DNA of 64,000 nucleotides from Agelas oroides (taxonomy: Eukaryota; Porifera; Demospongiae; Agelasida; Agelasidae). The DNA lies in NCBI GenBank assembly GCA_949130485.1, contig OX422186.1:6887292-6951291 (forward strand). The letters run 5' to 3'. The position numbers and the translations under genes were made by a program. Shown in pieces: positions 43,440 through 63,000 of the stretch (positions are counted from its first letter, which is position 1; the number at the start of each line of letters is the position of its first letter). Under the pieces are notes generated by a model. The model saw only the letters and a program-made list of their open reading frames with translations. It had not been told where the DNA came from and did not search any database.

Positions 43440-45130
43440 AAGATGTCTATTGATAACTTATGTTGTCATTTGATGTCTCATGAAACATCAGGAGATATCA
43501 TCACATCACAAGAAACCATTTTGGGTCACAAGACAGTATGAAACACCACAAGATATCATGAAACAAATAAGGAACCATGAGACAACATGAGACATAATAA
43601 GACACCACATCATGAGATGCCATATGAGACACCATGCAAATCTAGTCTCTTCCCCAGACCCCACCCTCTCACGAGGAGAAACAGTCTGGTGAACCAAGTT
43701 GAATTTCTTGGGCTAGTGCACGCTTTTGCGACAATGTAACCTAGCAATGATCAAAACATTTTGCGGCCAACCCGCTCAAAAAAGGTACGGATACTCAAAT
43801 GGAGATTAACAAATTTTACTGTTGTAATGGCAGTGCTACGTAATAATTACCAACCTCGCAATCTCATTGGTCATTACCACTTTTGGGGAATAAGCCCAAG
43901 GAATTCGACTTCGTTCACCAGACCGTTTCTCGCCGGGAGGCGCGTGCGGGTGGGGCATGAGACTAATGCAAATCATGAGACATCATGAGAAAAAACAAGA
44001 GATATTTTGAGACATCATAAGACACAATGAGACGTCATGAAACATCATGAAACATCATGAGACACCATGTGGCATTTTGAGACACCATGAGATGTCGCGA
44101 CACCATGAGACACCATGAGACACCATGAGGTACCATGAGACACCATGAGACACCATGAGGCATTTTGAGACACCATGAGATGTCGCGACACCATGAGACA
44201 TCATGAAACATCATGAGACACCATGTGGCATTTTGAGACACCATGAGATGTCGCGACACCATGAGACATCATGAGACACCATGAGACACCATGAGGCATC
44301 ATGAGACACCATGAGACACCATGAGACATCATGAGACACCATGAGACACCATGAGACATCATGAGACACCATGAGACACCATGAGGCATCATGAGACATC
44401 ATGAGACACCATGAGACACCATGAGACATCATGAGACACCATGAGACACCATGAGGTACCATGAGACACCATGAGGTACCATGAGACACCATGAGACACC
44501 ATGAGACACCATGAGACACCATGAGGCATCATGAGACACCATGAGACATCATGAGACACTGTGAGACACCATGAGACACCATGAGGCATCATGAGACATC
44601 ATGAGACACCATGAGACACCATGAGACATCATGAGACACTGTGAGACACCATGAGACACCATGAGACATCATGAGACATCATGAGACACCATGAGACATC
44701 ATGAGGCATCATGAGACATCATGAGACACCATGAGACATCATGAGACACCATGAGACACTATGAGACACCATGAGGCATCATGAGACATCATGAGACACC
44801 ATGAGACACCATGAGACATCATGAGACACTGTGAGACACCATGAGACACCATGAGACATCATGAGACACCATGAGACATCATGAGACATCATGAGACACC
44901 ATGAGGCATCATGAGACATCATGAGACACCATGAGACACCATGAGACATCATGAGACACTGTGAGACACCATGAGACATCATGAGACATCATGAGACACC
45001 ATGAGACATCATGAGGCATCATGAGACATCATGAGACATCATGAGGCATCATGAGACATCATGAGACACTATGAGACACCATGAGGCATCATGAGACATC
45101 ATGAGACACCATGAGACATCATGAGACATC
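43440..45130. repeat. large satellite of 10-bp ATGAGACACC/ATGAGACATC units
   Basis: The array is regular from about 43975 to 45130, over 100 units with higher-order alternation of ACACC, ACATC, GCATC and GTACC variants. It is degenerate from 43440 to 43640. Element F is inserted between the two parts. Reverse-strand frames reading MVSHGVSWCLM are artefacts of the repeat. Confidence 0.95.
43643..43965. mobile_element. MULE-type MITE F, copy 2, inserted in the satellite
   Basis: TAGTCTC...GAGACTA, 323 bp, flanked by the 9-bp duplication ATGCAAATC (43634-43642 and 43966-43974). The orientation is opposite to copy 1. Confidence 0.9.
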
Positions 45131-51700: not shown

Positions 51701-54561
51701 GGACTAAGCTTTACACCGAAATCGTGAGTTAAATTTCTGGCGTTTATGAGTGCCGTTTATGCATCAGGGCCCACTACCTGAAGCAGGCGACCCAGTCAAC
51801 CGGCCACCGCCATATTATCGCCTGTGAGCGGCCTGCCGTTGTTGGTAGAAGCACAAACCAGTGCCACACGTGCTTCAACTTCAGTCGTCTTCGCTCCAGG
51901 TCCCCGACGCTGCACTCTGACAGTAGCCCTGCACTGGCCTTCACATGCTTCACGATATCAACTTCGAGAAATATTTGAATGTGCTCATTTAAAATTTTCG
52001 GTAAGTGGTCGGTCCAAGCACGCAAGCAAGCAAACATACACACGCATGTGCGCAATGAAGTCACGCTAGTGTGGGGCTCGCTCAGGCTTGCCCCAATTAA
52101 CTGCTTCATTCAAAGTCCTCCAATTAAAACTCACCAAGCAGCTATTGGGAATCCTCCATTGCACCTGGAAAGAAAAAAAAAAGTTTCAAAGAGACAAGGA
52201 GTCTGAGCATAAATATCAGCACATACACATATGATACACTGTACTTGTTTGAAGTGAAAGGGCATTGCTATAATGCAAGGAATCAATGTGCAGGTTTTAT
52301 AATAGTTTGTTCAGCGTTTGCTACTTTGACTCTGGCAGACTAAAGTCTCTTGCTGCCGAATCACCCTTCCTCTACATTGGTCAGGCTCTCATTGGGGGCT
52401 AGCCAACTAAAGTACAGCTATTCCTCACCCCATTCCACAGTTATCACAGCAGGTCATCAGCTCTTCAGCTGAAATGTGGGCCTGCTCACCAAAGGCGACG
52501 CAGTAACGATCACTCATGGCTTCCACTGCACCGAGTGCCTGACAAAAACATAGAAGTCATGCACAAGATCTTTAAATTTGTAACTTGCAGTTGCAGTAGT
52601 AATCAAAACGCAGCCCCAGAAAATACACTGAATGTTGGGCCACCCAGTACCATTGGGAATGAAGTCTGCTAGCCTTTTGTGAATGGTGAGCCTTGGATAC
52701 TGTAATGCTACAGATAATTTAATAATGTGATTAATGCGAGCAACATAGGATTGCAATATCAAATATTTAACAATTAGTGTGACCACGGTTTGTGGGTGAG
52801 TTTTCATCAAAGATTAAGCTGCAGATAGCAGTAGCTGTAACGGAGCCAGGGCACCACTGGCATGCATGGCAGCTGTAGGCAACAACCGGCACAATTGTCC
52901 TGGTGTTATTGATGTCGAGACAAACTGCATGTAGCACTTTGGACAGTTGGTGCCATTTTTTGGTGAACAGCAACGCCAAAAAATGACAGCAGATGGCAGT
53001 AGCTCCATTCGTAAGCGCAGAATAACTAGTCAACTGCACTATTTCAATAGCATTAAACATTCTGAAATTGCATTATTATTGTCCTGCATTATTTTGTAGC
53101 AGTACTTTATGAACACTACCCTAGAAGTCAGTTGCATGCTCGATACCTTGAAGCAAGCCAGTAGAATAGCCTCATAATACATACTGATATGTTACTGCAC
53201 TTGGTAGTCAGAAGGAAACCTACAGTACGTATCTGTAGTTGATTAATGCACCTGTCAATGTTATCCCCCACTACCCCCCCAGTACAGGATTAGTAGGGGC
53301 GAGGTGAGGATTTGACATACAGGAAGTTCAAAACCCCTACCCCCTGGGAGGTTATTTAGAGGAAAATCCCGTGTATACTTTTCCCATTCAGGTTACAGAA
53401 AAATTCAAGCCAGTGTATCTTGCTGCACTGTTCTCCGCCATCTTCTTGACCACGAGGCACATCACAATGCAGTCTTAATCCTGGTTCCGTCTGAGGACAA
53501 GCTTTGTACCATATATGACACTATTACTCTTAGAATGCAGCGAGTTCAAATTTCCCCTACCCTGGAGGTTGCTCGGCGTCAAATTCCCAAGTTACCCCCA
53601 CTCTTCCCCCTACTAATCCGGTACTAGGGGTAGTGGGGGATAACATTGATAGGTGCTTAGTCTTTCAAGAAACCATAAAATGTGATTGTCTGTCTTTACT
53701 GTAGCCTATGAAGCCATTGATTGACCAGGTGAACCACAAGTTTACTTCACTCTTGTATTATAAACTGTTGACAGTATATAACACTTTGTACTACACTGTG
53801 TGGGTGGATTAAAGGCACCGCTGCTTACTGCAAACCACAAGGAGTACTTACAAGTACCAATTAGGGTCCATCCTGTAAGTTCCAGTTATATAGAAGGTAG
53901 TGAAGCCATGCTTAGTACAAGCTTGGTATACTACAGGCTAGCATGGTCAGGATATACACTGGTAGAAGCCTTGGCTTCTAATTGAATAACTGCCTCCTGT
54001 ATGCCCTGTAACCACACTTAGCCTGTAGTATATCTATAACGTGGACATAATTACGCAGAAGTGTAGCGGTGTGGACTCAAATGCGGATCACTAGGTACCG
54101 TGACTCCTTCTAGCCCCACCCACTTAGGCAAACCGACTTGTACGGCAGAACTCCTTCTACAACCCGCCCACGCACGATCGGGGGTGCCCCCTTATTTAGT
54201 CTAGCTACATAGTAACTAGTCGCCACTCACTCACCCAGCAGCTTCCGCAAGAGCCCTGGTCCCTGATTTCCTGTATGGTGGGGCAGTGCGGCCACTGCGT
54301 GCGAGCATCAAAAGTGTCCGGAATATCCTCGAGCGGCGTAATATGCTTGACCGGCAGTTTCTTGTCGAGGTAACCGCCCTTCAGGACACCGCATAGCCCG
54401 CGGGCGTAGTCTTCATCCACTCCGACAAATCGCTGGTTCACGCCAGCCTTCCATGTCGTACCGAGGCTGTTGATAATGTTGATATTTTCTTCGCCAAACA
54501 TCCTCGGGGTGCTGGCGGACGCAGCGACGCAAAGAAGCGTTAAAACAGCAATTCGCAACAT
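48718..54561 (-). CDS. CTSB: cathepsin B, complete six-exon gene
   Basis: Exons on the minus strand: 54561-54235, 52538-52429, 52164-52135 (30 bp), 51414-51098, 50828-50700 and 48797-48718; all GT-AG and in frame, giving 330 residues. It is a lysosomal papain-family cysteine protease. A signal peptide (about 1-17) and a propeptide precede the mature enzyme. The catalytic Cys108 is in QGSCGSCW, the histidine in [11 protein letters not shown] (His275) and the asparagine in VANSWN (Asn295). The occluding loop [13 protein letters not shown] (His186-His187), which gives dipeptidyl-carboxypeptidase activity, identifies cathepsin B rather than L. Introns hold element N, element D, a pogo-like element and element G. 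The gene is divergent from UQCC2 across a 106-bp gap. Confidence 0.95.
48953..49697. mobile_element. pogo/Tigger-like non-autonomous element, copy 2
   Basis: TA|CAGTAAAACCTCTAATAAC at the left and GTTCGGAGGTTTTACTG|TA at the right: inverted ends beginning CAGTAAAACCTC, with TA flanks as expected for the pogo branch of Tc1/mariner. The interior is homologous to 11296-11699. No transposase. It lies in cathepsin B intron 5. Confidence 0.85.
50008..50506. mobile_element. element G, copy 2
   Basis: AGTCTTGCGAAAGAGCGCCC at the left and GGGCGCTCTTTCGTGAGACT at the right. It is inverted relative to 5371-5822 and lies in cathepsin B intron 5. Confidence 0.75.
51507..52097. mobile_element. element D, copy 2
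   Basis: TGGGGCGAGCCTGAGCAAGC and the inverted GCTCGCTCAGGCTTGCCCCA. It fills most of cathepsin B intron 3, and its interior is shared with 3287-3741. Confidence 0.78.
53248..53656. mobile_element. inverted-repeat element N in cathepsin B intron 1
   Basis: The ends GCACCTGTCAATGTTATCCC and GGGATAACATTGATAGGTGC extend into inverted arms of about 50 bp (CCACTACCCC, GGATTAGTAGGGG). Length 409 bp. Flanks TTAAT/TTAGT suggest a short target duplication. No coding capacity. Confidence 0.82.
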
Positions 54562-54667
54562 CTTGGTCGGTGAGTGCAAGTGTGCCACGGAACAACAAAC
54601 AGCTCTGCCGAAGTGTATGTGTGTGACTGGCGTCATGTGACTTTAGATCACGTGTTCACAAAGTAAT
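54562..54667. promoter_or_regulatory. bidirectional promoter CTSB/UQCC2 with CLEAR-like E-boxes
   Basis: Only 106 bp separate the two start codons. The interval holds GTCATGTGAC (54632-54641), one base from the CLEAR palindrome GTCACGTGAC bound by TFEB/MITF-type factors, and a CACGTG core (54649-54654). Cathepsin B is a known CLEAR-network target in vertebrates. Use of the sites here is inferred. Confidence 0.55.
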
Positions 54668-60028: not shown

Positions 60029-63000
60029 TGCATGCTCACTCTCATATGCACACACATGCACAGTCTCACATGACGCACACACACAGTCACGCACACACTC
60101 ACATGCACACATACACACATACTTGTGTATCCACTGAAAGTCAGGTTCTTCGTCTGGATTCCCAAAGTCAGTTACCCTACACAAAGTAGAGGGAGGGAGG
60201 GAGGGAGGGAGGGAGGGAGGGAGGGAGGGAGGGAGGGAGGGAGGGAGGGAGGGAGGGAGGGAGGGGGGGAGGGAGGGAGGGAGGGAGGGAGGGGGGGAGG
60301 GAGGGAGGGAGGGAGGGAGGGGGGGAGGGAGGGAGGGAGGGAGGGAGGGGGGGAGGGAGGGAGGGAGGGAGGGAGGGGGGAGGGAGGGAGGGAGGGAGGG
60401 AGGGAGGGAGGGAGGGAGGAAGGAAGGGAGGGAGGGAGGGAGGGAGGGAGGGAGGGAGGGAGGGAGGGAGGGAGGAACAAATACATTGTGTATTGTCTGG
60501 TTAGCAATCACATGATTCAGTTGGTAAGCAACTACACTGTGACAGTAGATGAGATGTCCATAGAATTTGACAATAGCAACAGCAGTGATGCAAGCATATT
60601 AATGTTCCAGTACCTGTAACAGCTGCTCTGGCAGTAAGTCACAATGTAGTTGCAGCTGTGTACCCTATGTGACCGCTGACCAGGTGATTAGCTAACTGCA
60701 CGGTTTTGATTGATTGTCTTGTGTACTCTTGGTTTGTATGGGATGCATGTGCACACGTTAGTCTCATTCAGTTTTGCCAACAAATGAGAGGGAGGGGCTG
60801 GTAGATTTATCTTGAGTGATGTTCAAGTGTTCATGTAGCCTGATATGTCAGTGTCTATGTAGTGGACAGAGGGGGGAGGGTACAAAAATGATTTTAAGGC
60901 CTTGAGGGGTGTCCGTTAAGTGGGGTTCCACTGTAGTTAGCAGCGTAACAGAAACATGGAGTACTTCCAGAGACAAAGAGCTGCATGGTATATACTGCTA
61001 TACTCACCATGCATGGGTACACTGCTATACTCACATACATGCATGCGTACACTGCTATACTCACCATGCATGCGTACACTGCTATACTCACCATGCATGC
61101 GTACACTGCTACACTCACCATGCATGGGTACACTGCTACACTCACCATGCATGGGTACACTGCTACACTCACCATGCATGCGTACACTGCTACACTCACC
61201 ATGCATGGGTACACTGCTACACTCACCATGCATGGGTACACTGCTACACTCACCATGCATGGGTACACTGCTACACTCACCATGCATGCGTACACTGCTA
61301 CACTCACCATGCATGGGTACACTGCTACACTCACCATGCATGGGTACACTGCTATACTCACCATGCATGCGTACACTGCTATACTCACCATGCATGCGTA
61401 CACTGCTATACTCACCATGCATGCGTACACTGCTATACTCACCATGCATGGGTACACTGCTATACTCACCATGCATGCGTACACTGCTATACTCACCATG
61501 CATGCGTACACTGCTATACTCACCATGCATGGGTACACTGCTACACTCACCATGCATGGGTACACTGCTACACTCACCATGCATGCGTACACTGCTACAC
61601 TCACCATGCATGCGTACACTGCTATACTCACCATGCATGCGTACACTGCTATACTCACCATGCATGGGTACACTGCTATACTCACCATGCATGCGTACAC
61701 TGCTATACTCACCATGCATGCGTACACTGCTATACTCACCATGCATGGTACACTGCTATACTCACCATGCATGGGTACACTGCTATACTCACCATGCATG
61801 GGTACACTGCTATACTCACCATGCATGCGTACACTGCTATACTCACCATGCATGCGTACACTGCTATACTCACCATGCATGCGTACACTGCTATACTCAC
61901 CATGCATGCGTACACTGCTATACTCACCATGCATGCGTACACTGCTATACTCACCATGCATGCGTACACTGCTATACTCACCATGCATGCGTACACTGCT
62001 ATACTCACCATGCATGCGTACACTGCTATACTCACCATGCATGGGTACACTGCTATACTCACCATGCATGCATACACTGCTATACTCACCATGCATGGCC
62101 GATAGTGAACTTGTGAAAACGCAACATGTCTAGTACTCTACAGGGAGAAGAAGAGGACGACAGTAAGTAATGCAATTGGTTCAGCAGGAAAGTCACACAT
62201 TGAAATTATCCAAAGACATGTTTGCAGTGAAGGAGAGAAAACCTGTAGCCACTGGGAATCGAACCCAGGATACCTGGCTTGAGCTACCAGTGCTCTGACT
62301 GCCGAAGCTACGATCACTGGGCAGCCACCAGCCCTCACAATCCTCTATATACAGTACAAGATGTATTGAGTGGGTGCTGAAGCATTCAGTACCACCTGTG
62401 CAGTATATAGAGAGGATTGTGAGGACTGGCGGCTGCCCAATTGTTGTAGCTCAAGCCAAGAGGCATAGGTTCAATTCCCAGTGGCTTCTGACTTTCACTT
62501 TTGTATCCTTCACCTCATTACAGAAAATGTATCTTTATGTCCAGCTGAAGCAAGATGTTCTAATTATTCACTATCTTCCACGGTGATATTTCTTGGACAG
62601 GTGTGTGGCTAGCCTTGGCCCTGATCTTCAGTTATACCTCACCCCACTTGTGATATGATACACTGGAAGAGGTCTGGTCTCTGGTTGGCACACGCACACA
62701 CCAGCAGGCCCCCATTGGACCCACCCTGGATTGCCAGCCTGGGACAACAAAAATAACAAGAAGAAGAAGTTTGAGTAATGCAGGAAAGGCATAATATCCA
62801 TGACAAGACTAAATAATTCATTATGGGGGGAGGGGGAGGGGGGAGGGGGGAGGGGGAGGGGGGAGGGGGGAGGGGGAGGGGGGGGAGGGAGGGGGAGGGG
62901 GAGGGAAGGGAGGGGAGGGAGGGGAAATCCATCCAAGCAATAATGTATAAGTGTTGTTCTAGTCCTACAGGTAGTTGTGACAACTAAGTGGTACTTGTAT

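Follow-up and report, generated by a model that had tools for sequence, protein, structure and literature searches.

The prolyl endopeptidase (PREP) gene of the sponge Agelas oroides raises the question of how one 5' splice site is chosen when 41 of them follow the same short exon, and how such an arrangement is tolerated in a conserved gene. We analysed the locus in a window of 64,000 nucleotides (the whole stretch of DNA under study, to which all coordinates without a contig prefix refer) and compared it with the 259-Mb genome. The features of the locus are listed in Table 1; a slash marks an exon-intron boundary throughout.

Table 1. Features of the array-bearing PREP intron and its flanking exons
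Feature	Position	Strand	Details
PREP (prolyl endopeptidase) exon, 48 nt, 16 residues	62090..62137	-	3' end CATGCATG; phase 2 (TG/G)
Donor GTGAGT of array unit 1, putatively the authentic 5' splice site	62084..62089	-	sole frame-keeping donor of 41; conserved join HAW/VTD
27-bp minisatellite GTGAGTATAGCAGTGTACGCATGCATG	60994..62097	-	about 41 units, 41 GTGAGT; last 8 exon bases included
(CCCT)n tract, 287 bp	60189..60475	-	directly upstream of acceptor; putative role as pyrimidine tract
Next PREP exon	60123..60176	-	acceptor TTTGTGTAG/GGTAAC; 3' end placed by eye

The repeat is the top of the 46 rows that Tandem Repeats Finder gave for the window (60994-62097, period 27, 40.8 copies, 97% matches, score 1978). 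A first-pass annotation of this DNA had placed a satellite of donors beside the PREP exon at 60986..62137. By direct count we found 41 GTGAGT in 27-bp units on the minus strand, with first intron bases running from 62089 down to 61007 and with unit 1 supplying the donor of the exon itself. The satellite is real; the exon starts at 62137, and the array begins at 62097. That start lies 8 bases within the 3' end of the exon, inside CATGCATG, and the array terminates at 60994 in a degenerate unit at CATGCA. The context ATG/GTGAGT is found at 40 of the 41 donors, the exception being TAT/GTGAGT at 61034, and the 40 donor-to-donor steps measure 27 nt (38 steps), 26 nt (one) and 30 nt (one). The 38 pieces that measure exactly 27 nt differ from one another only at unit positions 7, 18 and 19; these pieces were cut at GTGAGT, which makes the hexamer invariant by construction, and the even spacing shows that no donor is missing. 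Most units are near-identical, and the unit variants are grouped in blocks. The array is not due to chance.

The unit core in its commoner form, GTGAGTATAGCAGTGTA, occurs 28 times in the genome, each time inside the PREP array. A dispersed repeat family was rejected on this ground. The shorter query CATGCATGGTGAGT was found at 22 places outside the array, and none of the nine that we inspected lay in a tandem array within the inspected stretch. Four closely similar stretches bearing CATGCATGGTGAGT occur within 40 kb at C3:2122593-2160996, apparently a local duplicated family.

The gene that carries the array appears to be intact. The 16 residues of the 48-nt exon together with the next exon gave PDB matches to prolyl endopeptidases, the best with E 9.8e-11. 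Among the 120 proteins listed, the PREP of another demosponge, Halichondria panicea, is the nearest (73%), and the protein join across 62090/60176 is the same in that species. A tblastn search with a human PREP query returned 18 same-strand pieces that together span human residues 66-688 in the right order, and one stray match; some pieces are weak singly (E up to 0.4), and residues 1-65 had no match within the span searched. The join checked among the exon joins was that of the array-bearing intron. All five genome matches to the C-terminal 152 residues fall at the window locus, and this search found no second PREP copy in the genome. The choice of the first donor is deduced from protein conservation.

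We joined each of the 41 donors to the exon at 60176. The frame stays open for the first donor only, and the remaining 40 (40/40) all read TGG TGA and end at the same stop, as the first-pass annotation had said of any downstream donor. The PREP exons after this stop encode the GDHDDRV and KAGHGAG stretches, as seen in the tblastn pieces. We take these stretches to be the carriers of the catalytic residues, so a product stopped by a decoy donor would be inactive.

Neither sequence nor predicted structure distinguishes the first donor. The same annotation had described the donors as sitting in a shared exon-like context, and this was confirmed: in 39 of the 40 decoys, 8 or 9 bases upstream and 6 to 17 downstream are identical to those of the real junction, and one decoy shares none upstream. 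The duplex energy computed with the U1 end is -11.8 for the real site, -11.8 for both common decoy forms and -8.1 for the single broken decoy. The openness predicted by local folding is 0.0026 for the real donor and 0.0001-0.0945 for the decoys. We rejected the possibility that RNA structure hides the decoys, because the real donor is no more open than many of them. According to these models, the first PREP donor has no advantage over its copies in sequence or in structure.

A second array at an exon came to light when the flanks of other GGTGAGT arrays on contig C1 were read. It lies in a glycerol kinase gene (C1:1197300-1198960, minus strand), has 14 donors in 22-bp units and follows an exon that ends ACCTCTGCAA/GTGAGT and that matches the Pfam domain FGGY_N (E 1.7e-13). 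The intron concerned spans C1:1198771-1197976. The units repeat the last 10 bases of this exon, ACCTCTGCAA, and the 14 donors consist of 10 GTGAGT, 3 GTGAGC and 1 GTGGGC. The frame into KFFGIPQEILPNIR is kept by the first donor only, and all 13 others read AAG TGA. The exon side is CAG/ at 10 of the 14 donors and CAA/ at four, the real donor (CAA/GTGAGT) included. In predicted U1 pairing the real donor reaches -5.8, the CAG sites -12.4 (seven), -11.3 (two) and -10.5 (one), and the other CAA sites -5.8 (two) and -4.7 (one). The real donor is therefore predicted to pair more weakly than 10 of its 13 downstream copies, the nearest stronger one lying 44 bp downstream. The kinase array is a sharper test of donor choice than the PREP array.

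The kinase peptide has seven matches in the genome: three at the array locus, two at a tandem paralogue, one at C1:1936918 and one on C16, which is distant and intronless. The tandem paralogue (C1:1181852-1182368) is about 16 kb away. It holds two exact units at a spacing of 22 bp, and the end of the matching exon, as placed by alignment, is about 60 bp from them. Exact units number 13 in the long copy and 2 in the paralogue, in one haplotype, and one further lone match lies on C13. The PREP and kinase arrays have the same anatomy and differ in unit, length and copy number. With the kinase array and the units of its paralogue in the same genome, the PREP case is not unique.

Choice among identical donors has mostly been studied with artificial minigenes. 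Natural repeats of a comparable kind have been named in amphioxus, where mirages are minisatellite-like tandem duplications of exon-intron boundaries, described in Adh3, the globins BflGb6 and BflGb9, TnC and PGBD5 (PMC3087553, PMC3902484). Many mirage units bear splice signals that could yield aberrant transcripts, and yet the Adh3 data and globin RT-PCR suggest that regular splicing is unaffected (PMC3087553). The Adh and TnC mirages are reported to produce no aberrant mRNAs; for PGBD5 their absence is inferred there, most splice sites resting on prediction (PMC3902484).

The two sponge arrays share the anatomical features of these mirages, judged from their sequence. In both, the repeat crosses the exon-intron junction, a splice signal stands in many units, and the host gene otherwise looks intact. 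The units of 27 and 22 bp compare with 10-72 bp in the Adh3 mirage, and mirage lengths are described as unstable (PMC3087553). The sponge arrays differ in their host, in including only 8-10 exon bases and in that their splicing is read from DNA; the PREP array also has about 41 units, against 6 and 3 in two BflGb6 haplotypes. On these features, the PREP and kinase arrays join a kind of repeat that already has a name.

A minisatellite in IFI6 (6-16, G1P3) was reportedly described by Turri, Cuin and Porter in 1995. This human minisatellite supplies several splice donors (PMC4526556), as the sponge arrays offer several donors within one transcript. Use of two downstream IFI6 units gives isoforms (PMC4526556), whereas each of the 40 downstream PREP units would give an immediate TGA. 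The first-pass annotation knew of no described satellite with this property; the accounts of the amphioxus mirages (PMC3087553, PMC3902484) and of IFI6 (PMC4526556) contradict this. Human segmental duplications offer a further likeness. Their exon-intron boundaries carry variable internal tandem repeats, which average about 30 bp x 4 and were proposed there as a route to new introns (PMC2812944). These repeats are often kept in the exon of alternative transcripts (66% of intron modifications), and the part of that work on boundary repeats does not describe a long donor array like that of PREP (PMC2812944).

We also asked how common donor arrays are in this genome. Minisatellites are dense: a 200-kb sample of C1 (20 x 10 kb) holds 35 arrays with a period of at least 10 and at least 3 copies, covering 6,702 bp, and some would therefore be expected on splice boundaries, an expectation drawn from density and not from a gene-model calculation. 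None of these 35 arrays has GGTRAGT in half or more of its units. Three spaced copies of GGTGAGT gave 412+830 = 1242 matches, slightly more than the 511+538 = 1049 of the reversed motif. The same search gave 25 matches in 10 arrays for MAG/GTRAGT against 42 for the reversed control, and 68 matches in 10 arrays for ATG/GTRAGT against 126 reversed, with 37 of the 68 coming from the PREP array. These figures count overlapping matches, to which large arrays contribute the most, and not arrays. Across the genome there is no clear preference for donor-bearing arrays. Genome-wide selection for them was rejected, as the motif count is above its reversed control in one of three comparisons and below it in two.

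We read eight flanks among the 10 GGTGAGT arrays listed, all on C1. One array abuts a donor exon (glycerol kinase) and one lies by an opposite-strand acceptor, and in the other six upstream flanks no exon was seen by eye. For the two further motifs, the reading of flanks covered one of the 10 MAG/GTRAGT arrays and two of the 10 ATG/GTRAGT arrays. The array by the acceptor (C1:11943070-11943370) has a 25-bp unit and lies just upstream of the acceptor; the exon AVLVIDPGIDTDPLYKPYADGLRDDVFIK, placed by eye, is presumably glycoside hydrolase 31-like.

Taken together, we favour the view that the PREP array is a mirage-type minisatellite, which arose by duplication of the boundary, has undergone ordinary minisatellite turnover and is tolerated because the first donor is picked by its position and not by its strength (probability about 0.75). 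The boundary duplication can be read directly in the PREP sequence. A short stretch over the exon 3' end and its donor would have been duplicated in tandem and then have grown by ordinary minisatellite turnover. The first donor would be chosen for being transcribed earliest and for closing the shortest exon (48 nt), not for a better sequence; since most kinase decoys pair better with U1, position rather than strength is the likely rule. Use of a later donor would bring an immediate TGA and loss of the message, probably by nonsense-mediated decay. The array may thus be close to neutral, any cost being small and dependent on its length. The proposed donor use rests on protein conservation and on the published mirages, and the PREP array is known from one haplotype of one assembly, with its splicing deduced from DNA and protein conservation. 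The slight GGTGAGT excess (1242 against 1049) and the human transcripts that keep their repeats (PMC2812944) count against a purely silent array, and an effect on splicing efficiency is possible.

The array might instead be at work in regulation. If a fixed share of transcripts used a decoy, met the TGA and was degraded, array length would tune PREP output through unproductive splicing. This would agree with the common stop at all 40 PREP and all 13 kinase decoys, with the equal or better predicted U1 pairing of most decoys and with the frequent alternative transcripts at human boundary repeats (PMC2812944). However, the accounts of published mirages report no interference with regular splicing (PMC3087553, PMC3902484), donor arrays show no clear enrichment in the three motif counts against reversed motifs, and we regard such tuning as unlikely. 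Another explanation would be an assembly artefact or a decaying gene. A stretch of 1.1 kb is well inside a single long sequencing read. Although the PREP array is seen in a single assembly, its unit variants come in blocks and an independent second array stands at glycerol kinase, while the PREP exon pieces are conserved in order and the genome search returned no second copy; this explanation is very improbable.

Two further readings look to the content of the units. UGCAUG, which we take to be an Rbfox-type motif, could strengthen inclusion of the 48-nt exon through the copies overlapping and following it: the transcribed strand has 42 TGCATG in 60994-62137, against 77 on the same strand elsewhere in the 64-kb window. 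No copy occurs in the glycerol kinase array, so that the motif is not common to both mirages; we set this reading aside on that ground and hold it slightly less probable again than an artefact. The least probable of all is that the array acts through U1, either as a sink for it or by letting it shield the intron from premature polyadenylation. There are 41 U1-type sites in the 1.9-kb intron, 40 of them full ATG/GTGAGT, but neither AATAAA nor ATTAAA occurs in that intron. Compared with the U1 pool of a cell, some 40 sites on a single pre-mRNA are a negligible number, and the U1 titration put forward in the first-pass annotation finds no support.

If RNA proves the first donor to be used near-exclusively, as the mirage-type reading predicts, transcription order and exon closure would outrank donor strength in an early-branching animal, and each mirage would be a natural allelic series measuring the first-site rule. 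The arrays of 41 and 14 donors stand in conserved genes, every later choice leads to a stop codon, and they allow a direct test of first site against strength in an animal distant from the usual models. They extend mirages beyond the lancelet genes treated in PMC3087553 and PMC3902484. More tentatively, sponges may carry mirages as a recurrent class, and at glycerol kinase the weak true donor would have to prevail over ten copies that are clearly stronger and stand in nearly the same context. Both array-bearing introns are phase 2 and begin with GTGAGT, which together give the immediate stop in both genes; with two genes (n=2), this may be coincidence or selection.

Other repeats occur around these exons. 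The (CCCT)n run forms an outsized pyrimidine tract before the acceptor of the array-bearing intron. The PREP donor after the next exon (CACAA/GTATGTGTG, 60123-59984, minus strand) is followed by a TG-rich repeat that contains GTGAGT, and the acceptor that follows it was placed on a CA repeat. Thus, several PREP splice sites border simple repeats. The other long arrays of the window lie at 43972-45130 (10 bp x 116) and 1-902 (28 bp x 32). A frame from the open reading frame list at 54205-54642 on the minus strand is a candidate cathepsin-type cysteine protease by likeness.
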